Shown in pieces: positions 1 through 50,194 of a stretch of 50,304 bases of DNA (its first letter is position 1; each line of letters starts with the position of its first letter). Origin of the DNA: a bacterium (GTDB lineage Bacteria > BMS3Abin14); contig JARGFV010000003.1 in assembly GCA_029210545.1 (NCBI GenBank), positions 1 through 50,304 of the forward strand, written 5' to 3'. The position numbers and the translations under genes are program-made. The notes beneath the pieces are model-generated. The model was not told where the DNA came from. It made no database searches and was given only the letters and a program-made list of their open reading frames with translations.

Positions 1-3000
1 CGCCGCCCCAGCCGATGGGCAGGGTGTAGGCGGAATCGTCGTACACGTGACAGATGGAACAGTTGCCGTGGTTCGTCGTGTCGGACATCTCGGGCAGGTC
101 GTGGTTCACGATCCCCGAAACCCAGCCGTTTACAAAGTCGCCGTGGCAGTTGGCGCACTCGCTGCCGTCACCGGCCGTGACCGTGGTCGTCCACTTCCTC
201 GACCAGCTGCCCGTCTCGCCAGGACCGTCGTGGCAGCCACCCACACCGACCTCGTTCACGCCGCCCGTGTTCGAACACGATCCAGGACTGGCGTCGCTGT
301 AGTCATCGAACAGGCCGCGGGTCTCGGTCTGGGCCGCGCCGTCGGCCTCCCAGCTCCCGTCCACGTGGCTGGCCGGATCAGAGGACATGGGCACCATGGC
401 CGTGTGGCACACGCCGCAGCCGGCCGACGGTGACAGAGCCTCGGCGTGGGTCGCCTGGCTCAGACGGGGCGTCACCGCGTGAAGACCCGACGTGTACATG
501 TGACCGACACCCAGGCCCTTCGAACCCACGTGACAGTCCACGCAGTTCAGGTCGGCCGTCCATTCGTTCGTATCGGCGGCGAAGTGGCAGTCGTTAGCGC
601 AGCTGCCGTCCCCGGCCCAGGTGGTGATCTTTGCCCCCAGGGCCGGAGAGGTCACCACGCTGTCTAACGTACTGTGGGTGTTGGGTGCGTTGTTGTCGTT
701 GTGGCAGTCGGTGCAGAACCCGCTTCCCGTGTCCACGTAGGCCGTGTTGGAAACGTGGGCGGCATGTTCGCCCTGGGCGGGCGGCCAGCCGCGTTCCAGC
801 CTGAGCCCCGCGGCGTCGTGGCAGTCGGTGCAGGCCAGATCGGCGGTATCGGCCCAGTCGCCGGAGACGGCCGCGTTGACGGCGTGGCAGTTGTTTGTGC
901 AGCTGCCGGTGGTCCCGTTGAACGCCGACACGTTGGCGCTGCCGCTGATGTTCACCGTCCCGTCGAGGTGGGTGGTCGCGGTCTGGGCCGTGTGGCACTC
1001 GGAACAACTGCCGGATACGAAATACGAACTTCCCACGTGGACCGTGTGGCGGGCGCCCTCGTTGCCGGTCTCGGCCGCGGTGTTGGGGTTATTGTGGCAG
1101 GTCGTGCAGTCATCCAGGGTGCTGCCCCACATGTACGATCCGCCGGCACTGTATGGGGAAGTGGTTCCATCACCGAGGTTGTGGCACTCGTTGATACCGC
1201 AGGAGCCGAATGTGACGTCGTAGGTGCCGTCATAGGCGAAGGTGACGGACCCGCTGACGGCAAAGGTGCCGTTGATGTGTCCGGGGGAAGGCTCTGTCGT
1301 GTTCCACACCGGCGGGCCCTGGTGGCAGTCCGCGCAGTTGATGATCCGCCCAAAGGAGCCGGCGGCGCTGGTGTGGGACAGGTGGGTGATCCCTGTAGCC
1401 GTTCCGGTGGCCGTCACGTCCTCGTGACAGACCGAGCACTGATCTGTCACCGCGGCATCCCATTGCGGTGACATCTTGTTGTCGTGGCAGGCGGCCGAGT
1501 CGCAGGTGCCCCAGGTCATGTCCTTATAGGCCAGGGAACCCGCCTGGCTGTAGGTCACCGACCCGCCGCCGTAGCTGTTTTCAAAGCTCGGCGAGTTGGC
1601 CCAGAACAGGTTCACCTCGCCGTTGCCGTGGCCGTAAGAGGTGCCGTTATCAGGGTGACACTGGGTACACTCGTAACCCCGGTCAATAATGTGGGTGCCG
1701 TGGCGGTTCGTGTAGCTCGCAGGCGGGTGGCACAGGGAGCAGGAGGGTGCCGGCGGGTTGTTCCAGTCGTTAATCCCGGTGGGAGTGTCCACCTGGTTGT
1801 GACAAGAGAGGTTGCACCCCTGGGTCGTGTAGTTGTAGGCGGCGCTGGCCGAATCTACGGTAGTAGAAAAAGCAGCCGTATCGTGCCTCAGGAAGGTCCC
1901 TGGAGCTTGGATGTCCACCCTCTGATCGGTTCCCGCGTTGGCCGAATGCCCGACTTCTCCCGGGAAGGGGTGGCAGTAGGCGCAGATGACAATCTGCTCG
2001 CTGGGTACGAAATCGGCCGGAGTTGATCCGTAACCCAGGTACTGTCCGATGGTCAGGATGTGGTTGTCGTGGGCCCCGATGTCATCGTCAGCGTAATCGA
2101 CCCTGTATGTGTTGTTGGTACCGTTGTTGTCAGGCCACAAACGGTCGGCGGACTCGTCACCGTGACAGTAGGCGCAGTTCACTCCAGGCCCGAGGAGGGG
2201 GCTCTCGGCGAAGGCCGAGGAGACCCCCATGACGCGGGTGTTGTCGTGGCAGGCCGCGTTGCACGCCCCGACGGCCGGGCTGTACCCGATGCTGGGGTGG
2301 GAGTTGTACTGTATGTCCCCTGACTCGTGGTGGGTATTCCAGTCGTAGGCGGGGTCGCCGTAGACGTGGCAGAACAGGCACTCCGAATGGGTGGAGTCGT
2401 CGACGGCGGTCCTGGCGTGGCTCACCGTCATCCCGGCGCTCCATGCGCCCCGCTGACCGTGGCAGGCATCGCACCGTGGGTCTCCGATGGTGGTGACGAG
2501 ACTCTCGGCGTTGTCGGTCCACTGCCTCTGCCAGTCGCCGCCGTCGCTGTGACAGGCGGCCAGGGCATTGGAGGGCGAACATGTGGGAACGGTGCCGGCC
2601 ATGAAATCCAGGTCCGCCGCGAAGTTGATCGTGTCGGCCTTCTGGTCCACAGTGCCGTTGTAATGGAGGTCCGAAGGTGACGCGCCGTGGCAGGTCTCGC
2701 AGCCCGTGACCCCGGCGGTGCCTGCCCAGAGGCCTTCGTCGTGGGATTGAACCACGGCCGAGTAAGCTGACGCTATCACATGCAGGGCGCTCACCGGATC
2801 CCCTAAGGAACCGCCTCCTGCCGCATGGCAGTCGACGCAGTTTGCGGTACCGTTCCAGGGCGGAGATTGCTTGCCGTTGTGGCACCCGGTCACCCAGGAG
2901 GGCGCACAGGTCAGGGTGGAACCGGCGCCCGTCGGGTTGACGCTGGCGTAAAGGTCCACCCTGCTGTTGACGTGGAGAAGGGTGTTGCCGTTTGCGTGGG

Positions 3001-6000
3001 CCGCCGTGGCCGCGCCGGGCCCGTGGCAGAGGTCACAGGAAGCCCCCGGGCCGTTGGGAACCGTGGCCAGGTGCGCCGGGTGGGCGAGGGTATCGGGAGT
3101 AGCGCTGGCATCGGTCCCGTGGCACGTCCCGCAGGCGCCCGTTGAAGGGCTGCCCCAGGTGGCCGTCGTGTTATTGCCGCCGGCCGGGTTGACGGAGGAA
3201 CCGATAAAATTCCCGTGGCAGTACAGGTTGGAACACTGGCCGGGTCCCAGGTTCCCGTAGGTCGCGGCCAAGGCGTTGAAGCCGTCGAAATCGACATCCG
3301 TGGCCAGGTCGGCGTGGTAGGTCGGGTCGTCCATGGAGGCCAGGCCGTCCAGGATCTGGTCCACGGCGCTGTGACAGCGTATACACTCGATGTCATAGTA
3401 CTTCCCTGAGGCCGTCCCCACGTGCACCGGGTGGCTCCCCTGGGCGATCAGACCCTGGGCAGGGTCGTCCACCAGGTGGCAGGTTCCGCAGTCGGCCGTA
3501 GCCGGATCACCCCAGTCGGGGGTCGTGTCCACACCCCTGGCGGCCGGATCGAGCCCCGAGCCGTGGCACAGGACATCCGAACAGCTGCCCGGGATGTCGC
3601 CGATGGCGCTCGAACCGCCGTTGGCCAGGGCGTCGTAGGCGGCCAGCGCCCCCCATGTGTCCGCGACGGCCACGTCGGAGCGCCAGTTCACGTGGCCGGC
3701 GTCCCCGGGTCCCGTTCCGTAACCCTGGACCTCGAGGTGGCAATCCATGCATCCGATGCGGAAACCGTAGTTCCTGACACTGGCCTGGTCGACGTGGGTC
3801 TCGTGGCTCCCGGTCTTGTTGGTGCTCCCCACCCTGTGGCAGGTGCCGCACGCGCCGCTGCCGACGCTGCCCCAGTTGGCGTTGTCCGTCCGGACGTTGA
3901 AGCCTGACGAAACGTAAAACTCCCCGTGGCAGTACAGGTTGCCGCACGTTCCGGCGTTGGGAGCCCCCGGCGTGTAGGTCCAGGGAACAGCGCCGTCCTT
4001 GTCGCTCAGGGAAAGATCGATGTCGATGTTCGACGAGATCTCGGAGGGCGTCAGGGCCTGGTATTGGAGGTCGGTCTGGACAACGAGTTCGTTGTGGTCG
4101 TTGTTGATATGGCAAAAGTCGCAGGAGTTGCTCCCGTACTTGTCGATGTGCACGAGGTGCTGGCCGGTAACAAGCGTCGGCGGGTAAGTGTGACACTGAT
4201 CGCAGGTGGCCACAAATCCCCGTTGGTGGATGTGGCACTCCCGGCAGTCGGTAGCGCGCCGTTCACCGTGCTGGGTGCTGTCCTCGCCGCCGAAGTTGTA
4301 TTTCGTGGGAGCGCCGTCGGTGCCCGGGTCGTAGTGGCAGGTGGCGCAGACATCAGTGGTCCCGGCTGAGTTGGCCGGGTTGGCCGGGTCCTCGCTGGGA
4401 TCGTTGACCTGGGAGATATCGTCGAAGGAGTTAATGCCCGTCACGTCGAGAAAAACAACGCTGTGGGGCTGGTCCGGGCTCGTGGCGGTGTTGGACACGT
4501 TGCCGAGCACCATGAAGATGTTGGCCGGGTCGCTGTGGGGGTCGTGGCAGTCGCCGCAGTTCAGGGTGAAAGCCCCTTCCCTGTAATAGCCGTCCGGTTC
4601 CACCCAGGTGTTGTTGTGGGTGATGACGCCCACCCCCGGCGACCCGTCGTGGCACGCGGAGCACCACGTGTTCACGTCCGAGGTGCTGGTTGAACCGATG
4701 GCCACTCCGTCGATGGAATCGAGGGGTCTTGGAAGGTTCCCGATGGAGCCGGTGACTCCGTCCACGTGGTTTTTTTGCCAGTCGTGACAGTCCACGCAGA
4801 CGAGTCCCGGAGCGTTCCCGCTCCAGGGGAGGCCCAGGATGTTGCCGTGCCCCCTGTCCACGAAACCGGTGGCCGTGTCTGGGGCCGGGATCGTTTCGAT
4901 AATGGCCACACCGTCGGCGTCGTTCTCATGGCACGACTCGCAGGTCACCCCGGAGGTGTAGTCGCCGTACCTGGGATCGAGCCAGGAAGCCTTGGCAGTA
5001 GCCGCGTCCGTGGCGCCGCCGTGGCAGGCGTCGCACTTTGTCGTGGTGCTCTTGAGCGCGGAATCGTTGAAGTCCACCTTGCCGTCGGCATGCTCCGGAT
5101 CGGTGTCCGAAGTGTGACAATCGTTGCAGGGGATCCCGGGACCGTTGGGATACGCCGTCGTGTTCAGGTGCACGGCGTGGGACCCGGTGGTCAGGGCAGT
5201 GCCTATGGCATGGCAGTCGCCGCAGGCCACCGTCCCGCCCCAGACGGCCGTGACATAGGTAATGGAGCCGGAGTAGGCCTCCCGCGAGCCATAGCCGAGG
5301 GAGTGACAGGCGACCTGGCATGTCTTGGACGATTCGCTGTAGGCACCGGAAGCGGTGGTCCCGTCAAAAAAGACATCAATATCGCCGTCCACGTGGAGAA
5401 CCCGGTTGCCAATTGTATAGCCGTCACTGGCATCGGTATCCTGGATCGTGTCGTAGTGGCACACCGAGCAGGTGTAGCGTCCGTGTTTGGTCGTATCGAG
5501 GTGGCTGTTGGCCTTGGTCTGGGAAGCCAGGGTCCCGCTGCCGGCCGTGTAGGTGTTATCCCCGGCCCCGCCGCTGCCTGTGGGATAATCCGGAGCCCCG
5601 AAATAGCTGGTGCCGAGGGCGTCCGACCGGAATGAACCGTGGCACCCCTCGCAGTCGAGACCCGCGGCCAGGCTATCGGTCCAGGCCTGGGCCGCGACGA
5701 CATCCGTATTGAAGCGGTCCGTCCCCTGGCCGTCAGAGTGGCAGTAAAGGTTCAGACATACGTTGGGCGTTGATGCTGTTATCGAATAGGAGGGGCTCCT
5801 CTTGCTGGGCAGGTCCTCGGGCAGGGCGTTGGGGTTGACGGCGAGGTCAAAGATAACGTTGCGGAAGGTCCCGGAGGCGCTTTCTCCCTCGTTGTGGTAC
5901 CCGGAAGAGGTCACCCGGACGTGGCACGTTTTGCAGACTTTGCCATAACCGTTCGGGATGGGAGCGGAGTGGACAGCGTGGGGCGTCTTGTCCTCCTCCT

Positions 6001-7567
6001 TGAAGTGGCCGCTGGCAACGTAAGTCCTGGTTTCGGCAAAGGCGTACCCGTCCGGGCCTCCTCCGTAGTTCGCGAGAGGGGGGTACCCGTGACAGGTATC
6101 GCAGACGTCGCTGGCCTGGAACGACCCGCCGGCGTCGTCGTGGATATGGCAGTCTTCACAGCCGGAAAGGATTCCCGTTCCTCCAGTGTGTTTCGGCCCG
6201 CCCAGAGCGGTATTCATGAGGTTCGAGATGTTGCCCGGGCCGCCGATGACACTGTGGCAATCCTCATTATCGCAGATGGCGTTGCTGTACACACCGTCGA
6301 GAGCATAGGTGCTGGAATCGTAATAGGCTCCGGCAGTCTCGAAATAGAGGCTTGTGGCAGGTGCTGAAACCGGGGGAACCCTGCGAACCATGGCGATGTT
6401 GGATCCCACACCATAACCGTGGGGATCGTGGCAGTCGAGGCATCCGACGTTGACCTGGTCTGTTGAGTGGGCTCCCTTTCCGGCGTGGCAGTTGGAACTG
6501 ACGCAATTGGACAGGACCGACTTGGGCGGATCGGAGATCTGCGAGAGGTTGGTGTCCTCGACAAAGTTGAGCCTGTTGCCTGAACTGGACCCGTTGGGAT
6601 TGAAGTGCGGTTTGGCAGGGTCGTGGCAATCGGTGCAGGTCACGGTGGTCTGGACCTTGCCGTGGCCGGCAAGATAGTAGTCGCTGGACGCCCTGTCGGA
6701 GGGCGGGTCGTCGAAGCTGTGGCAGATCCCGCAGTCTTCCGGGGTGACCGGGTCACCGGCGAGGTTCCTGTCGATGGTGATAAGTGCGGTGCTTTCGGTC
6801 GAGTTGTGGGGGGAGTGGCAGCCCGTCAGGTTCCCCTCGTCCAGACACCCCGCGGGTTGAGATGCAAAGGAGCTGCTGTATTCGAGGGATACCAGGGGCC
6901 CGGTTACCGCGTGAGCCACCTTCCCCGAAGCGTAACCGGTCTGCCCCGCGTCATGGCATATCTGTGTACACAGGGTATTGCCCCCCGTATTGGAGGGGTC
7001 GAGCATGGTCGCCCCCACGGACGGGTAGGTTGCCGAAACATCCAGAGCCCCCGTTCCCCCCGTCCACGAAACGGAGTTCGTATCCACGCCGTGGATGTTC
7101 GGGTCGAGAGGGCTTGCGCCTCCGGTTACGTAGGCCGTCGTCGACGTCGCGTGGCAGTCGACGCACTTGAGATCCGCTTCAGCGCTGCCGGTACTGGAGG
7201 TCAGGTAGTTGACCGGGTGCTTGGAAAAAGAGAGATCCGAAAAGTGGCTCTTTATGCCGACCATGTTGGTCCGGACCGTGTCGGCATCGTGGCAGTAGAC
7301 ACATGGGACCGGCTGTCCCGGGCTCCAGGTATTGTCTGGGTTAGACAGGATCTCGACGACCCTGAGGTCTTTTTTCAGCAGCCTCGTGTAGAGAACGACG
7401 GAATCCCGGCCGCCGCCCACGGAATGGCAGTCGCTGCACTGGGACTCCTGCAGCTTGTGGGCGGCTTCCAGCGGAACCCCGAACACCAGCAGGATAACCG
7501 CCGCGAAGGTCACCACCAACGCGGTTCCGGCCGGGAAACGCCCTTTATTTGGCCACATCCAACCCAT
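1..7567 (-). CDS. Giant multiheme c-type cytochrome (3' end outside window)
   Basis: The minus strand is open from an ATG at 7567 to the window edge, about 2,522 codons with no stop reached. The start has a ribosome-binding site (AGGGAG, about 5 nt away) and an exported N-terminus: short charged region, hydrophobic residues about 16-32, then the first heme motif CSDCH at residues 44-48. By hand I count about 46 CXXCH, six CX3CH and eight CX4CH motifs, all in one frame from 7438 down to 47. Several CX4CH motifs (for example CGNLYCH near 3930) pair with a following NWG or TWG segment and CGTCH, the pattern of the Geobacter CxxxxCH...CXXCH domain. Role inferred: heme wire or electron store at the outer surface or periplasm. 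It follows the 15-heme cytochrome gene on the same strand. Four further long-spacer Cys-(X7 to X13)-Cys-His candidates are reported as a finding. Confidence 0.93.
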   Translation of the reverse strand, partial: MGWMWPNKGRFPAGTALVVTFAAVILLVFGVPLEAAHKLQESQCSDCHSVGGGRDSVVLYTRLLKKDLRVVEILSNPDNTWSPGQPVPCVYCHDADTVRTNMVGIKSHFSDLSFSKHPVNYLTSSTGSAEADLKCVDCHATSTTAYVTGGASPLDPNIHGVDTNSVSWTGGTGALDVSATYPSVGATMLDPSNTGGNTLCTQICHDAGQTGYASGKVAHAVTGPLVSLEYSSSFASQPAGCLDEGNLTGCHSPHNSTESTALITIDRNLAGDPVTPEDCGICHSFDDPPSDRASSDYYLAGHGKVQTTVTCTDCHDPAKPHFNPNGSSSGNRLNFVEDTNLSQISDPPKSVLSNCVSSNCHAGKGAHSTDQVNVGCLDCHDPHGYGVGSNIAMVRRVPPVSAPATSLYFETAGAYYDSSTYALDGVYSNAICDNEDCHSVIGGPGNISNLMNTALGGPKHTGGTGILSGCEDCHIHDDAGGSFQASDVCDTCHGYPPLANYGGGPDGYAFAETRTYVASGHFKEEDKTPHAVHSAPIPNGYGKVCKTCHVRVTSSGYHNEGESASGTFRNVIFDLAVNPNALPEDLPSKRSPSYSITASTPNVCLNLYCHSDGQGTDRFNTDVVAAQAWTDSLAAGLDCEGCHGSFRSDALGTSYFGAPDYPTGSGGAGDNTYTAGSGTLASQTKANSHLDTTKHGRYTCSVCHYDTIQDTDASDGYTIGNRVLHVDGDIDVFFDGTTASGAYSESSKTCQVACHSLGYGSREAYSGSITYVTAVWGGTVACGDCHAIGTALTTGSHAVHLNTTAYPNGPGIPCNDCHTSDTDPEHADGKVDFNDSALKSTTTKCDACHGGATDAATAKASWLDPRYGDYTSGVTCESCHENDADGVAIIETIPAPDTATGFVDRGHGNILGLPWSGNAPGLVCVDCHDWQKNHVDGVTGSIGNLPRPLDSIDGVAIGSTSTSDVNTWCSACHDGSPGVGVITHNNTWVEPDGYYREGAFTLNCGDCHDPHSDPANIFMVLGNVSNTATSPDQPHSVVFLDVTGINSFDDISQVNDPSEDPANPANSAGTTDVCATCHYDPGTDGAPTKYNFGGEDSTQHGERRATDCRECHIHQRGFVATCDQCHTYPPTLVTGQHLVHIDKYGSNSCDFCHINNDHNELVVQTDLQYQALTPSEISSNIDIDLSLSDKDGAVPWTYTPGAPNAGTCGNLYCHGEFYVSSGFNVRTDNANWGSVGSGACGTCHRVGSTNKTGSHETHVDQASVRNYGFRIGCMDCHLEVQGYGTGPGDAGHVNWRSDVAVADTWGALAAYDALANGGSSAIGDIPGSCSDVLCHGSGLDPAARGVDTTPDWGDPATADCGTCHLVDDPAQGLIAQGSHPVHVGTASGKYYDIECIRCHSAVDQILDGLASMDDPTYHADLATDVDFDGFNALAATYGNLGPGQCSNLYCHGNFIGSSVNPAGGNNTTATWGSPSTGACGTCHGTDASATPDTLAHPAHLATVPNGPGASCDLCHGPGAATAAHANGNTLLHVNSRVDLYASVNPTGAGSTLTCAPSWVTGCHNGKQSPPWNGTANCVDCHAAGGGSLGDPVSALHVIASAYSAVVQSHDEGLWAGTAGVTGCETCHGASPSDLHYNGTVDQKADTINFAADLDFMAGTVPTCSPSNALAACHSDGGDWQRQWTDNAESLVTTIGDPRCDACHGQRGAWSAGMTVSHARTAVDDSTHSECLFCHVYGDPAYDWNTHHESGDIQYNSHPSIGYSPAVGACNAACHDNTRVMGVSSAFAESPLLGPGVNCAYCHGDESADRLWPDNNGTNNTYRVDYADDDIGAHDNHILTIGQYLGYGSTPADFVPSEQIVICAYCHPFPGEVGHSANAGTDQRVDIQAPGTFLRHDTAAFSTTVDSASAAYNYTTQGCNLSCHNQVDTPTGINDWNNPPAPSCSLCHPPASYTNRHGTHIIDRGYECTQCHPDNGTSYGHGNGEVNLFWANSPSFENSYGGGSVTYSQAGSLAYKDMTWGTCDSAACHDNKMSPQWDAAVTDQCSVCHEDVTATGTATGITHLSHTSAAGSFGRIINCADCHQGPPVWNTTEPSPGHINGTFAVSGSVTFAYDGTYDVTFGSCGINECHNLGDGTTSPYSAGGSYMWGSTLDDCTTCHNNPNTAAETGNEGARHTVHVGSSYFVSGSCSECHTAQTATTHLDGTVNISGSANVSAFNGTTGSCTNNCHAVNAAVSGDWADTADLACTDCHDAAGLRLERGWPPAQGEHAAHVSNTAYVDTGSGFCTDCHNDNNAPNTHSTLDSVVTSPALGAKITTWAGDGSCANDCHFAADTNEWTADLNCVDCHVGSKGLGVGHMYTSGLHAVTPRLSQATHAEALSPSAGCGVCHTAMVPMSSDPASHVDGSWEADGAAQTETRGLFDDYSDASPGSCSNTGGVNEVGVGGCHDGPGETGSWSRKWTTTVTAGDGSECANCHGDFVNGWVSGIVNHDLPEMSDTTNHGNCSICHVYDDSAYTLPIGWGG

Positions 7568-7785: not shown

Positions 7786-10383
7786 TCAATGACACCCCAT
7801 GCACAGTTCGTCGTCCTGCTCCCTGAGCCGAAGCATGTTGTTGTCCGGGATGGAGGTCAGGGTGGAGGCCTGGCCGCACCCCTGGCCCGAGACGTAAAGG
7901 TCCGTCCCGTGGGGGCTGTGGCAGGTCACGCACGTCACGAGCTGGTATTTTTCGGAAGGTGTCCCTCCGTCGTAATTGTCGAAATTCTCGCCCACCTGGC
8001 GGATCAGCGGATCGCCCAGGGGCATGAAAGGATCGTCATCGGACCCGTCGCTTGTACAGGCAACAGCGCCCCAGTAACCCCAGTGGTCGACATACCGGTC
8101 AATGTGCAGGTCTACGGGGATGGAACGCCACTGGGGATCGTAGGCCGGCGTCGTCGTTGAAGAAGGGGATTCCAGGTTAATCGCGGCCGCCGGATAATCC
8201 ATGAGGACAGCCGCCGGATTCGAAATGGGGAAATGGTCGCTCGGATGTTTGATGGTGTCGGTGAGGAACCCGTAGTCTCCACCCCCGAGAACCTTGGGAT
8301 GGCAGTCCGTCTGAGTGCACAGGTTGGTCAGGGGCCCCTCGGCCGAGCTTCGTCCAGGGAGGCTGTTGTTTAACGCTGCATCAGAGACCCTGTACGGGTT
8401 CCCGGACTCCACGGGGAAATGCCCCTGGCTCTCATCGTGGCACGCGACGCAGGCGAGGGGCACCGACGTGCCTGGAGCGCTGTCGGTAAACCAGGCCGGG
8501 TCGTTGATAGTCGAATCGCCATGCCCGCCCCTGCTGAACCCGCTTATGGGACCGACATAATTGGCGGCGGCATTGCTGGCCTGGAAGAAAGACCCTCCCG
8601 GCAGCTGGAAGGAGGCCGGCGAGATATTGTGGCAGTCGAAGCAGATGCTGTTGTAGGTCGGGGAACCTGCCAGGCCGTTCCAGGGAACCGATTCACCGCC
8701 CTCGAGTCCATGGCACCGGACGTTGACGCACGCGAAATCGTTGAGGGTGGTGTAGGTGACCTCCGTGTCACCGGAGATCCCGGGCCCTCCCCAGGTGGAT
8801 CCGAACCACGACGGCCGTGCACCCCAGCTTGCCTCGTAACCGGAGGACCCGAGGAGGGTGATCTTGTCGGCGTCGATGGGAATTGCCGCGAAGGAATGGC
8901 CGGGCTGCTGCCCCAGTTCAGCGCCAACTCCGTGGCACACGTCGCATGTCAAACCGTTTGACACGTGTTTTGTGTGCGCACCCGGCAGCGTGCTTCCGTA
9001 CTTGTGGCACCCGGCGCAGTTGGCGCTCATGGCGTTGTTGTGCTGATGACAGTTCTGGCATGGCGGGTCATCGCCTGCCCCGGGGACCCCCGGGTCGAGG
9101 AGGTGGGCATCCACCGGGGGAAGCGGGAATGAGCGAGACATTTTCTGTTCCTTCCAGTCGACCCTGTCTTTCGGATAACGGATTCGGATCCCGTATATGG
9201 TCGTCTTTCTGGTCCAGTCGACGATGAGGGGGGACACCCCTGTGGAGTAACTCAGGTTTTCATCCCAGTCGCTGGTTCCATGGCAGTAAATGCACATGAG
9301 CCGGCCGTTCCCCTGTCCGTTTCGCGTTTCGGGGCTGGCCTGAAGCTTCTTGCTGCTCCAGAAGCTCTCCGACGAACGATCGACAACCAGGCCGGCGCCA
9401 CCGCTTCCCTCACCGACGAAAATATCCCTGCGGAAAAACACCTCGTCGTCACTGGTTGTTATCTCACCCTTATGAGGATCGTGGCACAGTTCACAAGGGA
9501 GTTTGTCGGCAATACTGATTCTATAAAGAAGTTTGCCGGAGGGGGCACGGACCTCGTAATTGTCATCCGTCGCCCCGTCATTCATCCACGTTTTGACATA
9601 GTGGCCTCCAGGCACGTTATCCGGGTTCTCGTAGCTGTCCCTGACAGAAGGAAGGCTGGGAGCATTGTTGGTGGTTCCCGGCTTTCGCCCACTCGGAAGC
9701 TCATAATACCCCAGGTTGCTGCCGTCCGAATTGGGATCGGTATCCTGATCATAGGCAAACGCGATATCCTGGGGCGGGTTGGTAAAGTCATTGTCCGTCG
9801 GCCCACCAACCCTGGCGTCTCCCCCGTGGCAGTCATAACAGAAAATGGTCTTGCCAACGAGATAGTTTGGTCCGCCTGATGGGTACGAATCGGTCGCCAG
9901 GTCCCGCTTCTGGTAATATCCGGCCAGGTCACCGGTCAGGTCACGCTTCCAGAGCAGATGATCGGCAAAATAATTGCCCGACGAACTGCCCGCCATTGAA
10001 ACCGTGTTTTCATCGGGAAGGTGCAAGTCATGGCAGGGCCAGCAGACCCCCCCGAAGCCGATGGTGCGGGAGGAAAAATCGTGGAGCGACCCTTCGGCAA
10101 CGCTCTGATCCCGGGCGGTGGATGCCCACGGCGGTGGCGTGCCGTCGTGGCAATCAAGACACAGGTCGCTAAGTACGGCAGCGTCCGGGGAAAGGTCTCT
10201 TTTGTACTGGGCTAACTCCGGCGAGTAATGGGCAATGTGGCACTCGTCGCACACACCCTTGATACCGGATGCTGTATAAGCAGGATCCGAAGAGCGATCG
10301 TGGGGCCCTCCCGCCAGAGGAAGAGCATGAAGTGAGGGAGCGTTAAGTAAAATGAAGAAAAAGACAATGGCTATAAAGCACAT
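7786..10383 (-). CDS. Secreted multiheme c-type cytochrome (about 15 hemes)
   Basis: About 865 residues from the ATG at 10383. The N-terminus is hydrophobic (MCFIAIVFFFILLNAPSLHA), like a signal peptide but without basic residues. The frame stays open upstream to a TTG at 10572 with ATGs at 10506 and 10503. None of these has a convincing ribosome-binding site, so the start is uncertain. Motifs in order are CDECH, CLDCH, CWPCH, CYDCH, CELCH, CIYCH, CQNCH, CAGCH, CDVCH, CVNVRCH, CFDCH, CVACH, CTQTDCH, CVTCH, and CMGCH right at the C-terminus. That is 13 CXXCH plus two CX4CH. Many His residues outside the motifs could act as distal heme ligands. No enzyme family is recognised. It is probably an electron carrier working with the giant cytochrome downstream on the same strand. 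Confidence 0.92.
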   Translation of the reverse strand: MCFIAIVFFFILLNAPSLHALPLAGGPHDRSSDPAYTASGIKGVCDECHIAHYSPELAQYKRDLSPDAAVLSDLCLDCHDGTPPPWASTARDQSVAEGSLHDFSSRTIGFGGVCWPCHDLHLPDENTVSMAGSSSGNYFADHLLWKRDLTGDLAGYYQKRDLATDSYPSGGPNYLVGKTIFCYDCHGGDARVGGPTDNDFTNPPQDIAFAYDQDTDPNSDGSNLGYYELPSGRKPGTTNNAPSLPSVRDSYENPDNVPGGHYVKTWMNDGATDDNYEVRAPSGKLLYRISIADKLPCELCHDPHKGEITTSDDEVFFRRDIFVGEGSGGAGLVVDRSSESFWSSKKLQASPETRNGQGNGRLMCIYCHGTSDWDENLSYSTGVSPLIVDWTRKTTIYGIRIRYPKDRVDWKEQKMSRSFPLPPVDAHLLDPGVPGAGDDPPCQNCHQHNNAMSANCAGCHKYGSTLPGAHTKHVSNGLTCDVCHGVGAELGQQPGHSFAAIPIDADKITLLGSSGYEASWGARPSWFGSTWGGPGISGDTEVTYTTLNDFACVNVRCHGLEGGESVPWNGLAGSPTYNSICFDCHNISPASFQLPGGSFFQASNAAANYVGPISGFSRGGHGDSTINDPAWFTDSAPGTSVPLACVACHDESQGHFPVESGNPYRVSDAALNNSLPGRSSAEGPLTNLCTQTDCHPKVLGGGDYGFLTDTIKHPSDHFPISNPAAVLMDYPAAAINLESPSSTTTPAYDPQWRSIPVDLHIDRYVDHWGYWGAVACTSDGSDDDPFMPLGDPLIRQVGENFDNYDGGTPSEKYQLVTCVTCHSPHGTDLYVSGQGCGQASTLTSIPDNNMLRLREQDDELCMGCH

Positions 10384-10650
10384 TGAATCGGCATGCCGTG
10401 CTATCGCTCCCCGGCGTGGACGCACAGCACTCAGGCGCACCCTGGCAAAGCCGGCTGTTTTCCCTGAAAAGGTTTTAAGCACGGTAAAGCATACCTTTCC
10501 CATCATCCGGTCAGGCAGATGGCTCCCTTCAACGACCCGGCAATTCGGGCCGACGGCCCTGCACAAAAACAACTTTATAGACGACTTCGGGCAATCCGCA
10601 AATTTTTAGCACGACCCGCTGTCCATGGCAACGGACAAAGCACCGCGTAA

Positions 10651-11274
10651 TTACCTGATCACGTTCTCGAGCGCCGGGTATCTGGCCAGATCCCCCTCCA
10701 GCAATGCCCCCTCCAGGTCGTTTGTCATGATGCCCCTGAGGAGGTAATCAGCGATCACCGAATACGCCATCTGCCTGTCAAGAAACACAACCCCTCGATC
10801 TGCAAGACCAAGGACGATCACCCTCGCCTCCTGGAGCGCCTTGGTCCGTTGCTGCAAAACCGTGTTGAGACGTTCGGCAGAGACTTTCTTGGCAACCCCT
10901 TCCCGGATCTTGTTGCTCAGGTCCTTAAGGGCGATATCGGCACGGGCAAGTTCGGACGCGAATTCCAGGTATTCCCGTGGACAGCCCACCGGGTACCCCG
11001 CTTCCACCAGGATCCGGACCGCGTCCCTGATCGGGGCGATCTGTTCTTCCGGGATATCCAGTGAACCGTAATAACTCTCACATTCCAGCGCGACCTCAGG
11101 ACCGTAGGCCTGCCGGAGGATGGAATCGACCTCCTTCCAGCTGCAGGAACCGTCGACCGGTACCGTGAGCAAGGCTAGGGCGAGGGAGGTGACAAACAAG
11201 CCCTTTGTCAGCGTTGAAAAGGCCAAGACACGCCTCCAGGTTGGAATCAGGTTCAGGAGCAGTCGTCCTGGCAT
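10651..11274 (-). CDS. Exported hypothetical protein
   Basis: This 207-residue product has a long hydrophobic N-terminal stretch around residues 23-38, preceded by basic residues, consistent with a signal peptide or anchor. The rest is mostly helical and charged, with two Cys near residues 43 and 63 and one near 98 that could form disulfides. I do not recognise the family. The start overlaps the end of the upstream anti-sigma gene by 22 nt, which suggests translational coupling, and the multiheme cytochrome lies downstream. No strong ribosome-binding site precedes the ATG. An inferred role is an accessory or sensing partner of the anti-sigma protein or of cytochrome assembly. The 267 bases between this gene and the chosen start of the cytochrome contain no other gene. 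Confidence 0.75.
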   Translation of the reverse strand: MPGRLLLNLIPTWRRVLAFSTLTKGLFVTSLALALLTVPVDGSCSWKEVDSILRQAYGPEVALECESYYGSLDIPEEQIAPIRDAVRILVEAGYPVGCPREYLEFASELARADIALKDLSNKIREGVAKKVSAERLNTVLQQRTKALQEARVIVLGLADRGVVFLDRQMAYSVIADYLLRGIMTNDLEGALLEGDLARYPALENVIR

Positions 11275-11894
11275 TTTTCGCTGACGACCAGCACGGAGTT
11301 GTAGCCGCCGAAACCGTCAGGGACCAGGGTCGCTGATTTGGGGTTGGCGACCCACCGTTCTCCGTCGACGAGAAGGTTGTAATGATAGACACCGGGATCG
11401 AGAGCCAGGGAAAATTCCCAGATCCCCCTGTCGCTCGCCTGGGCCAGGGTAACTTCCCTCTGCCCCCATTCGTTGAAGTCACCGATGAGGGCCACCGAAT
11501 CGGCCTCGGGAGAGAAGAAAATGATCCTCACCTGCTGGGAAATGACGGCATCGGACTGCGGTCCCGGGAACATGTCCCTGGCGATAAAACCAATCCCGAT
11601 GGCAAGAACCAGGGAAACGGCCGCGACAATGGGATGCAGGAACCGCCAGGAGAACGCCCCGCTGGCCTGCCTGGCGGGCAGGTTGGCCATGACCCTCTGG
11701 GCAAAGTACGGGGGGGGCTCGACCTGCCACTCGGAAGCCCGGTCCAGAAGGCCGTCGAGAGCCTGGAACTGGGCGACACTCTCCTGGCACGCCCCACAGT
11801 TTTCAAGGTGGGCCTCGAACCTTGCTCTCTCCTTCTCCGCGAGATCACCGGAAAGATATGGATCGATCATTCGTTCGAATTTTATGCAGCTCAT
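11253..11894 (-). CDS. Zinc-finger anti-sigma factor with CBM48/AMPK-type domain
   Basis: The 213-residue protein has three parts. Residues 1-45 form an anti-sigma zinc finger with His29-x3-Cys33-x2-Cys36 (HLENCGAC). About 86-109 is one transmembrane helix. About 120-205 matches the early-set / glycogen-binding (AMPK beta, CBM48) fold, with FNEWG, WEFSLALDPGVYHYNLLVDG and a C-terminal strand. By family knowledge such proteins hold an ECF sigma factor at the membrane and release it when the outer domain senses a signal. Unusually, no sigma gene sits beside it. The only ECF sigma in the window is at 40.1-40.7 kb. It is the first gene of the run leading into the exported protein and both large cytochromes, so it may control them. 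Confidence 0.85.
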   Translation of the reverse strand: MSCIKFERMIDPYLSGDLAEKERARFEAHLENCGACQESVAQFQALDGLLDRASEWQVEPPPYFAQRVMANLPARQASGAFSWRFLHPIVAAVSLVLAIGIGFIARDMFPGPQSDAVISQQVRIIFFSPEADSVALIGDFNEWGQREVTLAQASDRGIWEFSLALDPGVYHYNLLVDGERWVANPKSATLVPDGFGGYNSVLVVSEKCQDDCS

Positions 11895-27753: not shown

Positions 27754-28002
27754 ATGAAAAAGAAACGAAACACGCAGTCTGGACAGGGGATGACAGAATA
27801 CATCGTCATCGTCGCGCTTATCGCTGTGGCGGCAATCACCGTGGTGGGGTTCTTTGGCGATGTGGTACGGAACCAATTCTACACCATGACGGCCGCCCTG
27901 GCCGGTAGCCCGGCTCACGGCAAAGCGAAAGATATCGTCAAAAAAGCTGAAAAAGAAAAGAACCAGAGGGGTATGGGCGACTTCTCGTCCCCGGCCCGTT
28001 GA
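27754..28002 (+). CDS. flp: Flp-type pilin
   Basis: 82 residues. The start MKKKRNTQSG has an AAAGGAGG ribosome-binding site 8 nt upstream. The basic leader ends in SG, cleaved before QGMTEY, giving the hallmark Glu5-Tyr6 of mature Flp pilins. A hydrophobic helix (IVIVALIAVAAITVVGFFG) follows. The charged Lys-rich tail is longer than in many Flp pilins. It is the major fibre subunit candidate of the Tad pilus, assembled through the secretin at 31163 by the FHA-CpaF ATPase. The prepilin peptidase needed to cut it is not in this window. Confidence 0.92.
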   Translation: MKKKRNTQSGQGMTEYIVIVALIAVAAITVVGFFGDVVRNQFYTMTAALAGSPAHGKAKDIVKKAEKEKNQRGMGDFSSPAR

Positions 28003-28016
28003 AAGGGTCTCCGGCG

Positions 28017-28547
28017 ATGGCATTCGTGAAGACCGAAGAATCCGGGCCACCCCGAAACGCGAGGGGACAGGGAGTTATCGAGGCCATAGTGGCCCTCCCT
28101 GTCTTCCTCGTACTTGTATGCCTCATCTTCCAGCTTTTCTTCCTTGCCATAGCACGCGTCCAACTCCAGTACGCCGCCTTTTACGCTGCGCGTTCAGGAG
28201 TTGTCCACGATGGGGATATCCGGGTCATGGAAAAAACCGCCTCCAGGATCCTGGCTGCGTCACCCGGCTTGTCTCCTTTCCGGCCAGGATCGCTGCTGAT
28301 CGAATTGATCGATGGGAACGACCAGGAAACGGACCGACAAAGACCACAGGGGGGGCCTGCTCCAAACACGCATCTGGGCATCCGGGTCACCTGGAACTAC
28401 CCCCTGATCGTCCCGCTGGCAAGCAGGCTGTTCGGGAGATCATCCGGAACAGGCCCATATCGATCCGGGCCCACGATCCCCTTGCACGCTTCGTGGACCA
28501 TGGAAATGCAACAATACAAAGAAACGGAAAACAGCGATGAAAGGTAG
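28017..28547 (+). CDS. TadE-like pseudopilin
   Basis: 176 residues from the ATG at 28017, preceded by AAAGGG about 9 nt upstream; a TTG at 27999 is possible. It has a short leader ending ARG, then QGVIEAIVALPVFLVLVCLIF, so Gly-Gln cleavage with Glu at position 5 as in Flp and TadE. A soluble C-terminal domain with RVTWNYPLIVPLAS follows. This matches the TadE-like minor pilin family, which works at the base or tip of the fibre. It follows the pilin gene at 14 nt. Confidence 0.85.
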   Translation: MAFVKTEESGPPRNARGQGVIEAIVALPVFLVLVCLIFQLFFLAIARVQLQYAAFYAARSGVVHDGDIRVMEKTASRILAASPGLSPFRPGSLLIELIDGNDQETDRQRPQGGPAPNTHLGIRVTWNYPLIVPLASRLFGRSSGTGPYRSGPTIPLHASWTMEMQQYKETENSDER

Positions 28548-29661
28548 ACCCGCCTCCAGATCGGGAATCCGGGGACAGGTCCTTATCCTGGCGGTTCTGG
28601 TCCTTGGCCTGTGCTGCACTCTCCTCCTGGGCCTTTTCACGGTGTCGGCAGCCGTGCAGCAGAAGATCCGCCTTCAATTAACGGCTGACATGGCCGTCCT
28701 TTCCGTGCTGAACCATCAGGCCAACACTCTCAATTCCATCGCCCTGGCCAACAGGGCCATCCTGGCAAATGATGCCCTGGCCGCACAGCTCAACGCCCTT
28801 AGCTGCGAATCACGTTTTTACAGAAGGTTCGTGGAAAAGTTCCAAAAGTACCTGAAGTTCGTTCCTTACGTTGGGCCGGCGCTGACATTTATTTCTCAGG
28901 GCGCCAGATCCATGGAACTCCTCGTGAAACGATCAGCTTCCCTGATCCTTCCTTTTTGCCGCGGGGCCAACTCCCTTCTTGGCCGGAGCCAGCAGTTTAT
29001 CCGAAAGCTCCTGCCGCTGAATTCCTTGAAGGTCGCCCAGCGCTCCATCGAGGAGAACATGCCGGGATCGGAAATGCCCGCGCCGGGCAAGCTGCTTCTG
29101 TTAACCAAGGCACGACAGATCCAAAAAAGTCTCGAACCCATCCCAATGGAGAAGGCTGCAGCGGTCAGAAGGGCTACCATGGACAGCCACACTCTGAAGC
29201 GGAACTGGAGGGTCAGCGTCGGTGGGTTCTCTCCAATAAAGAAAACGGGCGGGCTCAACATCCCCACGGGGGACCTGCAAGCCCAGGACAAGCTGCGAAT
29301 AAAAGTGTTCAAGCGGCTCCGCTGGCGCTGGAAAACGGCCCTGTCAGAAAAAAACCTCGCATCGGATCTCGGCTACAAAGCTCCTGAGCGGATCATCTCC
29401 CTTAACCGTGGGAAGAACACTGAATTCACTTTGCCCCTGGCCCTGCAGTGGAACTTTTCGGGCGAGTTGTTCGGGGAGATAGATGAGAGAAATTTTCTTG
29501 CCCTCTCCGCAGGACGCCTTTTCTATCACCGGGAGTCTCATCCTGAAGAACAGCCCAACGTGTTCAATCCATTCTGGAAGACCCAACTCATTCCGGTGGC
29601 ATCCGAACCAACGGCGAAAAAGATCGTACCGAAAATGATCCTCGAGGAGATCCGACATTGA
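28537..29661 (+). CDS. TadG-like pilus assembly protein
   Basis: 374 residues. The start overlaps the TadE stop by 11 nt. The N-terminus GIRGQVLILAVLVLGLCCTLLLGLFTV has the Gly-Gln cut site and hydrophobic helix but lacks Glu at position 5, as in TadG relatives. The following part (TADMAVLSVLNHQANTLNSIALANRA) is a helical region common in these putative pilus assembly proteins. The remainder has no recognisable domain. Likely a minor pilus-associated membrane protein. Confidence 0.78.
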   Translation: MKGRPASRSGIRGQVLILAVLVLGLCCTLLLGLFTVSAAVQQKIRLQLTADMAVLSVLNHQANTLNSIALANRAILANDALAAQLNALSCESRFYRRFVEKFQKYLKFVPYVGPALTFISQGARSMELLVKRSASLILPFCRGANSLLGRSQQFIRKLLPLNSLKVAQRSIEENMPGSEMPAPGKLLLLTKARQIQKSLEPIPMEKAAAVRRATMDSHTLKRNWRVSVGGFSPIKKTGGLNIPTGDLQAQDKLRIKVFKRLRWRWKTALSEKNLASDLGYKAPERIISLNRGKNTEFTLPLALQWNFSGELFGEIDERNFLALSAGRLFYHRESHPEEQPNVFNPFWKTQLIPVASEPTAKKIVPKMILEEIRH

Positions 29662-30275
29662 GTCTTTTCAGGTCCGACAGACAAACTGCCAGACAAACCG
29701 GACAGGCGTTGATCGAACTGCTCGTTATCCTGCCGGTTTTTCTCCTGCTCTTCGCCTGCGTGCTGCCCCTGACAGCCTACGGGATATTCCCGACGTGGCT
29801 CGACGAAAGACTGGCCCTTTCCCAACTCACGGAAAAGACAGAGTTGATCCCTGACATCCTTTCCGAAGCTCATGGAAGCTGCCGCACACCCACTTATCCC
29901 GACGAGGAAACAATCGAAGAAACCTCGACAAGCACTCCAACCGGCAACATATCGTTCTCACTGCCCGGGGTTCTCCCGGACCGGATGATACGGCATGAAC
30001 TCAGCATGACTCTCACACGAAAAGACCTGTTGGCCGGCAGCGTCATGGCATCGTGGTCCCGTACCAGCGAAACGGTCACCCGCAGTCTGTCCCTGCTCAT
30101 ACCAGACAGGTTCGAGGAACAGGACGTATCCCGCCACGTGAAAAGCTGGAGTCTGGTTGGGGTTCTGCGGGGAAAAGACACCGTATTAAAAAAACTGGGC
30201 ATCAACCTTTTTCACCTCAATCTCGATGCGGTTCCGGCGAATGATTCAGGAGGAAAACCAGATGAGACGAAGTGA
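29658..30275 (+). CDS. Second TadE-like pseudopilin
   Basis: 205 residues from a TTG that overlaps the previous stop (TTGA), with GGAG about 9 nt upstream. The leader RQTARQTG is followed by QALIELLVILPVFLLLFACVL, again Gly-Gln with Glu at position 5. The soluble part has a PTYPDEETIEETSTSTPTG linker. It looks like a minor pilin paralogous in design to the one at 28017. It overlaps the small pilin downstream by 14 nt. Confidence 0.8.
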   Translation: MSLFRSDRQTARQTGQALIELLVILPVFLLLFACVLPLTAYGIFPTWLDERLALSQLTEKTELIPDILSEAHGSCRTPTYPDEETIEETSTSTPTGNISFSLPGVLPDRMIRHELSMTLTRKDLLAGSVMASWSRTSETVTRSLSLLIPDRFEEQDVSRHVKSWSLVGVLRGKDTVLKKLGINLFHLNLDAVPANDSGGKPDETK

Positions 30276-30417
30276 ATCCGGCCAGTCACTCACGGAAACG
30301 GCCTTTCTGACAGCTCTTGTCTCTCTGGGCGCAATCGGAAGCATGGCAGTGTGTCACGAGAGGATAGTCCGCTTCATCGACCTTATCCTGTCAGTTATCG
30401 CCAGCCCTGCACCCTAA
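30262..30417 (+). CDS. Second small Flp-like prepilin
   Basis: 51 residues from MRRSESGQSLTETAF, with AGGAGG 8 nt before the ATG. Cleavage after SG would give QSLTE, with Glu at position 5 but Thr, not Tyr, at 6. One hydrophobic helix fills most of the rest and the tail is short, ending SVIASPAP. It contains a CHERI segment of no obvious meaning. It could be an alternative or minor pilin. Its gene overlaps the pseudopilin upstream. Confidence 0.75.
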   Translation: MRRSESGQSLTETAFLTALVSLGAIGSMAVCHERIVRFIDLILSVIASPAP

Positions 30418-30440
30418 GCCAGGCACCTTAAGGAGTCACC

Positions 30441-31166
30441 ATGAAAAGTAAAAGAACCGTTCTCATCATTTCCTGCCTGATTGGCCTTATCAGCGCCTCT
30501 GGATACATGTCCCGGATCCAGTCGATCCGTGACGAGATCACCGACCTCACGGAAATGGCCCCTGCCCTGACAGCAAGCCGCACGGTTCACGCCGGTGAGC
30601 GCCTTCAACCTGACACCCTGACGGCGGTCATGGTTCCGCGTAAATCTCTTTCTCGGAGGGCCCTTACCCCTGACGACCTGGAACTTGTCAGTAACCGGCG
30701 GACCCTCAACACCATACCAGCGGGTGACACTGTCCTTTGGACCGACCTGCCGGAGGGACCAAGGCTGAAAAACCCATCTGAAAGAATCCCTCCAGGCTAT
30801 CGCGCGATCGCTCTGCCTGCAGACGAGATCCACACCATGGTCCATTTCCTTTCACCAGGAGACAAAGTCGATGTGCTCGCTTCGTCATTCTCGGAATCAG
30901 CGGGAGGGCTGATCACCGACACGGTGGCAGAAGGGATCCTTATCCTGGGTGTTGGACTGCATCTGGACAGCTGGGACCGGAGCGACGAAGAGAGCGATTA
31001 TCCCCTTTCCGTCACGCTGCTGGCTGAACCCGCCATCGCTGCCAGGATACTTAAGGCGTCCCAGGTGGGTGAGGTCCACTTCCTGGTCAGGGGAAGGGAT
31101 ATCCTTTCCGAGATTTTGGGGAAGGAGACCACCATTCTCGAAACCGATGAAAGGAAAACGAGATGA
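30441..31166 (+). CDS. cpaB: CpaB-family pilus assembly protein
   Basis: 241 residues with an N-terminal membrane anchor (about 6-22) and an SAF-like domain (ASRTVHAGERLQPDTLTAVMVPRKSL), followed by IPPGYRAIALPADEIHTMVHFLSPGDKVDVLA, the RcpC/CpaB signature. It is a periplasmic protein of the Tad channel that works with the secretin. Its end overlaps the secretin ATG (ATGA), so the pair is coupled. Confidence 0.92.
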   Translation: MKSKRTVLIISCLIGLISASGYMSRIQSIRDEITDLTEMAPALTASRTVHAGERLQPDTLTAVMVPRKSLSRRALTPDDLELVSNRRTLNTIPAGDTVLWTDLPEGPRLKNPSERIPPGYRAIALPADEIHTMVHFLSPGDKVDVLASSFSESAGGLITDTVAEGILILGVGLHLDSWDRSDEESDYPLSVTLLAEPAIAARILKASQVGEVHFLVRGRDILSEILGKETTILETDERKTR

Positions 31167-32374
31167 ACCGGTACCGGCCCACCCTTATCCCGGCGGCAGC
31201 GCTGTGCTTAACTCTTCTTTTTTCGGGCTCATCGCCCTGCGATGACAGTTTCGACATCGACGACATCAGCGAAGCCGGCTCCCTGCAGGCGATCCCTTTG
31301 TCCCACAGTTCAGAAGAGGCCCTCGACCGCACTCTCCAGTCCGTCGAGGACATAGAAAATCTCATCGTTTCCCGGTTCCCTGGAGGGGCGATCTTCAGAG
31401 GAGAGCTGCTCCTGTCTGAAGACATGCGCCGGGTCAGCACGATTAGCGATTCCATGAGCAACATCATAAACCTGTGTTCCTACCACCCGGACGCCCTGGC
31501 AGTATCAGCGGATTATCTGAACCGCATCCTTAAAGAGAACCGCGTCGAGGGCCTGCATCTGTCCACCCTCGGGAAAACACTTCTGCTATCCGGAACCCCG
31601 GCCGAAGAAGGGGACGCGTCGAGAGTGGAAAGAATGTGCAAAGCGCTGAATATCCCTTTTATCGATGGCACCCGTTCCCTGGTAGCCGACCGCCGGATGG
31701 TCCTGTTCGAAGTCTCATTTCTGGAGATCAACCGGGATGCTTTCAGGGAGATCGGGATCGACTGGCCTGCTTCCACCACCCTGGCCGCGCCGGACAGCTT
31801 GCGTTTGGGGAAACTGGCGCCTGCGCACTCACTTGAGATCACCATCCAGCACCTTATCCGCGAAGGAAAAGCCAGGATCATCTCCAGACCCAGGCTGGCG
31901 TGCCGCTCTGGCCAAAAAGCGACCTTTCAGGCCGGGGGTGAAATCCCCATACCACGCACGGATCAGGAGGGCGGCATTTCCGTTACCTGGAAACCGTACG
32001 GGATCATCCTCCAGGTCGCGCCCTCCATAGACCAGGAAGACATGATCCACGTCCAGGTGCTTTCGGAAGTCAGCATGGTGGACCAGGCAAACGCCGTCGA
32101 GGGTATCCCGGGAATCCTGACCCGCAGAGTCGAGACCAGCCTGAGCCTGGCCATGGGGCAATGGATCGTCCTTTCCGGTCTCGTTCACAGTGACGACAGT
32201 GAAAGGATCAAAAAGGTCCCTCTTCTGGGAGACATCCCGATACTGGGTGAGCTCTTCAAGTCCAGGGACTTTCAGAAAAGGGAAACGGAACTGGCCGTCT
32301 TTTTGCGGCCCCAACCAACCGCTGTCTCCGACACTGACGAATATGACGAAGCGCTGCCGGAGGCGGCCCGATAA
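31163..32374 (+). CDS. cpaC: Tad secretin (outer-membrane channel)
   Basis: 403 residues. A signal peptide (about 1-25) is followed by an N-domain with a BON-like segment (NRVEGLHLSTLGKTLLLSGT) and the secretin C-domain with VSFLEINRDAFREIGIDW, IQHLIREGKARIISRPRLACRSGQKATFQAGGEIPIP and the closing RIKKVPLLGDIPILGELFKS. It forms the multimeric channel through which the pilus leaves the cell. It is placed between cpaB and the ATPase as in known Tad clusters. Confidence 0.94.
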   Translation: MNRYRPTLIPAAALCLTLLFSGSSPCDDSFDIDDISEAGSLQAIPLSHSSEEALDRTLQSVEDIENLIVSRFPGGAIFRGELLLSEDMRRVSTISDSMSNIINLCSYHPDALAVSADYLNRILKENRVEGLHLSTLGKTLLLSGTPAEEGDASRVERMCKALNIPFIDGTRSLVADRRMVLFEVSFLEINRDAFREIGIDWPASTTLAAPDSLRLGKLAPAHSLEITIQHLIREGKARIISRPRLACRSGQKATFQAGGEIPIPRTDQEGGISVTWKPYGIILQVAPSIDQEDMIHVQVLSEVSMVDQANAVEGIPGILTRRVETSLSLAMGQWIVLSGLVHSDDSERIKKVPLLGDIPILGELFKSRDFQKRETELAVFLRPQPTAVSDTDEYDEALPEAAR

Positions 32375-32411
32375 CGGAGCCTGAAAAGGGCCCGTGAAAA
32401 AGGAGGAAGTA

Positions 32412-32708
32412 ATGAAAAGTGGATCGAGGTTTTTACGTACGGGGACTTTGCTGCTGGTTCTCCTGGCCGCGGTTTCTCTTCTCCTGCCCATAGTGGCTTC
32501 CGGAATGGACGGCGGGAAGGTCAACATCAACGTTGCCACATCCGAGGAGCTTACATCCCTTCCCGGGATCGGGCAGGCAAAAGCCGACGCGATCATCGCT
32601 TTCCGCGAAGGGCACGGGCCCTTTGCCACCGTCGATGGCCTCTTGGAAATACGGGGGATAGGAGCGGGACTCGTGGAGAAGCTAAGAGACCTGGTAACGA
32701 CCGAATGA
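32412..32708 (+). CDS. ComEA-like exported helix-hairpin-helix protein
   Basis: 98 residues from MKSGSRFLRTG with AAGGAGG about 6 nt upstream; a GTG at 32394 is an unlikely alternative. An N-terminal signal peptide (about 8-30) precedes a single ComEA-type HhH domain: VNINVATSEELTSLPGIG, then KADAIIAFREGHGPF, then LLEIRGIGAGLVEKLRDLV. ComEA family proteins bind double-stranded DNA outside the inner membrane during DNA uptake. Its position inside a pilus operon is unusual and suggests a DNA-linked role. Confidence 0.9.
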   Translation: MKSGSRFLRTGTLLLVLLAAVSLLLPIVASGMDGGKVNINVATSEELTSLPGIGQAKADAIIAFREGHGPFATVDGLLEIRGIGAGLVEKLRDLVTTE

Positions 32709-32759
32709 CAACTTTCCCTGACGGGGGCAGGGGCCACCCTGTCCCCGGGGAGGCAACTC

Positions 32760-34367: not shown

Positions 34368-35016
34368 TATTTTTTCGACGTTTCTCACAGGGGCAGCGGC
34401 GACAACCATCACCTTCCTCGCGGCAGGATGGTATGGGAAAAGATCCAACAGGGAGAAGATATCCCGCAAGAGTTCACAGCAGATGGAAGAGCAGCTGCCC
34501 GCCTTCCTGGACACTCTCGCCTCTGGCCTCTCGGCAGGTAACAGCCTTCAGCAATCCATGGACATCTGTATCAGGAAGGCGCCTGACCCGCTGATGACAT
34601 TCGTGCAGAAGATCCTTCTCAAACACAGATCAGGCATGTCTCTCGAAGAGGCTCTCAAATCAGAGGCCGATGAGATCAGCACAGGCAGTATGTCTCTGGC
34701 GCTCAACTCTATTGCAGCCTGCTACCGTTCTGGAAGCAACATGGTCGAAGCGCTCTCCCTTCTTGCTACTCTTTGCAGAGAGCGATCCAATCTGAGAAAA
34801 AAGATCCTGGCCAGGACAGCTCAAAGCAGGATGCAAGGGAGCGTCATTGTGGCTGTTCCCCTGGTCTTCATGATCCTTTTGTATATCGTCAGCCCACAGA
34901 ACATGATCCCGGTGATCCGCACGGATCTTGGCAGAAATATCATGGCAGCAGCATTACTTCTTCAGACCATTGGCGCCCTTCTGATCAGGAGGGTTTTAAA
35001 ACAGGAGATCCTGTGA
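34354..35016 (+). CDS. tadB: TadB inner-membrane platform protein
   Basis: 220 residues from [10 protein letters not shown] with GGAGG 8 nt upstream, overlapping the cpaF stop. Membrane helices at about 7-25 and two near the C-terminus flank a type II secretion F-like domain (LPAFLDTLASGLSAGNSLQQSM, GMSLEEALKSEADE). It is the inner-membrane pilus platform partner of TadC. The stop overlaps the tadC ATG (ATGA). Confidence 0.9.
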   Translation: MHLLDIFSTFLTGAAATTITFLAAGWYGKRSNREKISRKSSQQMEEQLPAFLDTLASGLSAGNSLQQSMDICIRKAPDPLMTFVQKILLKHRSGMSLEEALKSEADEISTGSMSLALNSIAACYRSGSNMVEALSLLATLCRERSNLRKKILARTAQSRMQGSVIVAVPLVFMILLYIVSPQNMIPVIRTDLGRNIMAAALLLQTIGALLIRRVLKQEIL

Positions 35017-40079: not shown

Positions 40080-40107
40080 CACAAATGGTCTCCTGGCAGG
40101 AAAAGAG

Positions 40108-40719: not shown

Positions 40720-40724
40720 AACGA

Positions 40725-45494: not shown

Positions 45495-45514
45495 TCCTGG
45501 AAAGGACTCATTTC

Positions 45515-47842: not shown

Positions 47843-47898
47843 GGCCGGCCCCTTTGAGTAAAGTTCAATGATGCAACTAAATATCCAAGTGACTAAGT

Positions 47899-50158: not shown

Positions 50159-50194
50159 GACCTGGAGCCCCCTCACATCGAAAAATCAGGTTCT

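Follow-up and report, generated by a model that had tools for sequence, protein, structure and literature searches.

A giant multiheme c-type cytochrome with a 12-heme N-terminal domain and tandem three-heme modules

We identified a giant multiheme c-type cytochrome at the edge of a 50,304-nucleotide stretch of bacterial DNA (the whole stretch is hereafter called the window), and sequence analysis confirmed that it is encoded in a single intact frame. The predicted number of bound hemes is at least 64 for this protein and at least 87 for its ortholog in another genus of the same family. It is probably a Sec-exported giant heme chain, in which a 12-heme N-terminal domain is followed by tandem modules of the Geobacter type, and would serve in extracellular electron transfer or storage together with a 15-heme partner. 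The features of the gene and its neighbors are listed in Table 1.

The frame extended on the minus strand from 7606 to 2 without a stop and was still open at window base 1, which coincides with base 1 of contig C3 in the source genome (G000, 2.72 Mb, 241 contigs). Because the contig begins there, the gene lacks its 3' end as a result of an assembly cut, and since it overruns the contig, 64 hemes is a minimum. No 3' continuation was found in the source genome with either the C-terminal 813 residues of the ortholog or the C-terminus of a complete paralog as query. Translation could start at GTG 7606 (2,535 codons) or at ATG 7567 (2,522 codons); the latter was favored because AGGGAG is located 5 nt ahead of it. 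A Sec-like signal peptide directly followed this ATG and no lipobox was present in it, both as read from the sequence by eye. GC content at third codon positions was 0.76–0.86 throughout the ORF, without a break, and an Rfam search of the window gave no match. An earlier sequence-only reading had described one continuous minus-strand frame of 2,522 codons starting at ATG 7567, open at the edge and not a broken gene; all of this was borne out. In particular, a broken gene was ruled out by a collinear ortholog, 67% identical, in a separately assembled genome.

Table 1. Features of the giant cytochrome gene and of the genes directly upstream (window coordinates)
Feature	Position	Strand	Basis
Giant multiheme c-type cytochrome, 5' 2,522 codons	2..7567	-	Open frame; motif counts; alternative GTG 7606
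Sec-type signal peptide MGWMWPNKGRFPAGTALVVTFAAVILLVFGVPLEA, without lipobox	7463..7567	-	Read from sequence
N-terminal domain, hemes 1–12, common to seven family members	6077..7462	-	Alignment; searches
Heme 5, long-spaced CX8CH; Cys pair and His invariant in 7/7 members (CX8-9CH)	6815..6847	-	Cys pairing; alignment
Two three-heme modules, hemes 14–19	5114..5920	-	Module comparison
Middle section, hemes 20–28, CX2CH throughout	4109..5113	-	Motif spacing
Twelve consecutive three-heme modules, hemes 29–64: CX3-13CH, W, CX2CH, H, H, CX2CH	47..4108	-	Module comparison; TIGR01904 and PF09698 matches
Heme 38, CX7CH, first position of module	2879..2908	-	Cys pairing; kept in ortholog
Heme 41, CX8CH, first position of module; CX3CH in ortholog	2549..2581	-	Cys pairing; ortholog alignment
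Heme 62, CX13CH, first position of module; likewise CX13CH in ortholog	230..277	-	Cys pairing
15-heme cytochrome immediately upstream on the same strand; TTG-initiated ORF, with a probable ATG at 10383	7786..10572	-	G003 ortholog 57% identical, same place
Two small conserved genes: 207 aa without family match; 213 aa, zf-HC2 (anti-sigma type) and CBM48	10651..11894	-	Counterparts in G003

A computational recount of the heme motifs reproduced exactly the 46 CX2CH, 6 CX3CH and 8 CX4CH motifs reported before. The earlier total of about 60 was thus correct for these three spacings, but four long-spaced sites had been overlooked and the full number is 64. The frame contained 64 CH dipeptides, and those outside CX2-4CH motifs had an unpaired Cys 7, 8, 8 or 13 residues before them, giving CX8CH (CH at residue 263), CX7CH (1575), CX8CH (1685) and CX13CH (2458). 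All 128 Cys residues of the window protein fell into 64 C-Xn-CH pairs with none to spare. In the ortholog, the 174 Cys residues of the mature part formed 87 pairs, and the only two leftover Cys were in the signal peptide. Chance occurrence of the motifs was ruled out, as 500 residue shuffles yielded means of 0.36 CX2CH, 0.33 CX3CH and 0.36 CX4CH (at most 3 in any class), i.e., about 0.4 per class against the 46, 6 and 8 observed. Three of the four long-spaced motifs occupied the position taken by CX3CH or CX4CH in the modules described below and the fourth was invariant in the N-terminal domain, which is strong evidence at the sequence level that they are heme sites. Searches for CX2-4CH, which are usual in genome surveys, overlook such conserved long-loop sites (4/64 here).

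The window part of the protein contained 14 three-heme modules (hemes 14–19 and 29–64). The first motif was stretched in every module, with a spacing of 3, 4, 7, 8 or 13, and the second and third motifs were always CX2CH. A Trp followed the first motif in 13 of the 14 modules, and His-x-x-His was usually present between motifs 2 and 3. At least one His preceded motif 1, none preceded motif 2 (14/14) and at least two preceded motif 3, giving three or more distal His per module. The ortholog contributed a further seven complete modules and an incomplete eighth one. With this countable repeat and its variable first motif, heme number can be given in multiples of modules, and the idea that one chain equals one wire becomes testable. 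Modeling of two modules with AlphaFold2, using sibling modules as the alignment, gave a mean pLDDT of 34.7, and the model was discarded.

The heme array matched TIGR01904, PF09698, Cytochrome_C7 and the MtrC/MtrF domain II/IV profile. Scores were 140.1 bits over 8 stretches for TIGR01904 (cut-off 27), 56 bits for PF09698 (cut-off 21.7), 143 bits for PF14522 and 132.5 bits for PF22113, the MtrC-MtrF domain II/IV profile (cut-off 30). A search for the Geobacter CxxxxCH domain, proposed in the earlier reading, was therefore positive. The whole protein had no match among PDB chains (phmmer, E ≤ 0.01). A module profile retrieved UndA as the best PDB match (7e-9); this match and that to PF22113 are probably driven largely by the heme motifs. 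A search of the PDB with the N-terminal domain returned nothing credible, and no Pfam S-layer domain was detected in the 2,535 available residues, from which the C-terminus is missing.

The ortholog was found in genome G003 and comprised at least 3,325 aa, with 67% identity across the whole window protein. All 64 CH sites aligned between the two proteins; all 128 Cys residues and 70 of the 72 non-motif His residues were identical, and Met was conserved at 7 of 19 positions. The ortholog also ended at its contig end, and its frame stopped within a 106-nt direct repeat of 90% identity, which is the likely reason for the contig break.

We further checked the occurrence of this protein family. The N-terminal domain was detected in only 2 of 12 genomes searched in this small phylum (G000 and G003), all 12 of one family, and 396 Nitrospirota genomes yielded only weak partial matches. 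The whole protein retrieved only matches of the heme-motif type (26–35%, in one Nitrospirae and one gammaproteobacterial genome) from a broad collection of genome contigs, and none from viral contigs. Besides the window, frames with the N-terminal domain were located on contigs C136 and C166 of G000 and on C40, C66, C17 and C61 of G003. Those on C136 and C166 are further giant paralogs, both cut at contig ends; the C166 gene adjoins a propeller-like protein, as does C17. Of the seven family frames examined, six overran a contig end, and heme counts from these two draft genomes are accordingly lower bounds. The only complete member, C17, has 1,885 aa and 39 CH sites; every mature Cys is paired, but the last pair, spaced 40 residues apart, is possibly no heme site. 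On C61, a giant protein of at least 2,201 aa has upstream of it a relative of the 15-heme protein that is extended by a long heme array (at least 1,363 aa), and this second tandem pair suggests that parts have been exchanged between the 15-heme and giant types. A similar array of heme modules, joined to non-heme repeat domains, was observed in a 2,679-aa protein of a Nitrospirota genome (G186, contig C46, 5504–13543).

The 15-heme cytochrome is the probable operon partner of the giant protein. Gene order was shared with G003: a metallo-beta-lactamase-fold protein (71%), the anti-sigma-type protein, the 207/215-aa protein, the 15-heme protein (57%) and the giant (67%). The anti-sigma-type protein (11253–11894, minus strand) is a zinc finger fused to a glycogen-binding CBM48 domain, lies beside the cytochrome pair in both genera and is a possible regulator. 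No porin family was recognized among the neighboring genes scanned. An origin of the locus as prophage or element cargo was rejected, as no sign supported it.

Additional redox loci were present in the window. A cytochrome with 14 hemes, whose C-terminal end carried two CHSCH sites, adjoined an NHL-propeller protein (40725–42692 and 42692–44344, minus strand), and this second cytochrome cluster also contained an ECF sigma factor (40108–40758) and a BamB-like propeller (38991–40142). Two related cytochromes with 8 and 7 hemes (46559–47983 and 48899–50176, minus strand), which partially matched the GSU2203 and DmsE decaheme models, bracketed a ResA-like thioredoxin (48158–48715); another redoxin was encoded at 45491–46084 (plus strand). 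A run of pilus/secretion-type genes occupied 28000–38230 (plus strand), including a secretin-like gene (31163–32374) and others that appeared FHA-like and TadE-like by eye. Two unrelated minus-strand ORFs, with 5' ends at 15396 and 47983, had a near-identical translated start (LICKERENxAFPFPWSxKSRIGLFATLS). This stretch is probably a repeated intergenic DNA element, and the ORF starts at 15396 and 47983 are therefore doubtful.

With regard to function, the giant protein would be exported by Sec and its hemes attached outside the cytoplasm; ResB-type cytochrome c synthase genes were present in the genome (PF05140, 275 bits). The hemes are expected to be mostly bis-His coordinated, given 72 largely conserved non-motif His residues for 64 hemes. 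Successive modules may set the hemes close enough for electron hopping, such that one polypeptide would constitute a long heme chain. The OmcZ subunit contains eight hemes. At the OmcZ rise of 58.1 Å per subunit (PMC9473688), 64 hemes would extend over ~46 nm and 87 hemes over ~63 nm, assuming OmcZ-like packing. The chain would act at or outside the outer membrane, where electrons from respiration may be carried or stored for extracellular acceptors, and the 15-heme neighbor is its likely partner.

Alternatively, the protein might be a charge store and not a wire, its hemes forming a periplasmic or surface-located electron capacitor that buffers respiration when acceptors are scarce. Heme number ranged widely among paralogs, from 39 CH sites in the complete one to at least 87, a variation that capacity fits at least as well as fixed length, and at least three paralogs were present in G000 and four in G003. 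However, heme order and spacing were strictly kept between the orthologs, which capacity alone would not need, and the two roles are compatible with each other; we consider storage as the sole role rather doubtful. It is unlikely that the protein is primarily a structural or adhesive surface polymer for cell-mineral or cell-cell bridging in which hemes are secondary. Although the proteins adjoining the paralogs on C17 and C166 look BNR-like, and C17 also adjoins a long protein of Ig-like appearance (both read from sequence), the window gene has no propeller or Ig-like neighbor, every Cys serves heme, the non-motif His residues are almost fully conserved and the non-heme residues are the most divergent. 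Finally, wrong fusion of separate cytochrome genes via repeats is hardly credible: repeats abound in these genes and the majority of family members stop at contig edges, but direct DNA repeats of 60 nt or longer are absent from the window ORF, and frameshifts or mis-joined repeats are ruled out by the collinear ortholog (at least 3,325 aa in one frame) in the separately assembled genome of another genus.

The exported heme chain proposed here represents a known kind of molecule, not a new one, and a size record is not established. Published examples include a 69-motif protein in the closed genome of Desulfuromonas soudanensis (DSOUD_0664, PMC4914508), an 86-motif protein on an ANME-2c fosmid (PMC9012536) and a 113-motif protein in a Methanoperedens genome, described in 2020 as the largest of any microorganism (PMC7327174). 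Against these maxima, the earlier statement that the window protein is among the largest of its kind holds, and the status of largest known was rejected. With at least 64 hemes it is below the bacterial 69-motif example, and the ortholog, with at least 87, is above it, both sequences being unfinished. We tentatively suggest that these proteins might form a lineage-specific family in which single chains act as heme wires and carry more hemes than any other bacterial protein, with more than 100 possible in the complete ortholog, a 12-heme N-terminal domain unmatched in the PDB, and a first motif that is freely stretched (CX3 to CX13CH) yet keeps its heme.

DSOUD_0664 is likewise a bacterial giant multiheme cytochrome predicted to be extracellular, a likeness drawn from its description only. 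The ANME and Methanoperedens giants have a similar or larger number of hemes per chain, but the ANME MHC-A/B types possess S-layer domains, and the 86-motif ANME-2c protein combines S-layer with pectin lyase-like domains; the window part of our protein, from which the C-terminus is missing, showed no domains of this kind. OmcZ, OmcS and OmcE filaments are also extracellular multiheme chains, and OmcZ shares the long-loop trait in that one heme is held by a 14-residue loop (PMC9473688). However, these filaments are polymeric, with 4–8 hemes per subunit, and no PDB chain was matched by the giant in phmmer. MtrC, OmcA and UndA resemble the giant in the PF22113 profile match, but the giant has no lipobox, and no porin family was recognized among the neighboring genes scanned. 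The Geobacter-type cytochromes of TIGR01904/PF09698 share the CxxxxCH...CxxCH repeats, which scored above the cut-off many times along the array. In contrast to these models, the repeat here has three hemes (two within TIGR01904), its first motif ranges from CX3CH to CX13CH, and the 12-heme N-terminal domain lies outside the coverage of TIGR01904. Tandem three-heme domains are also found in GSU1996 of Geobacter sulfurreducens, a dodecaheme protein with four triheme domains in one chain that forms a linear monomeric heme wire (PMC10138318). Compared to its four domains, each with one His-Met heme, the giant has at least 14 modules in the window, and seven more complete ones in the ortholog. One His-Met heme per module is not indicated, as the conservation of Met was low relative to that of non-motif His, and the conserved His residues are enough for bis-His coordination.
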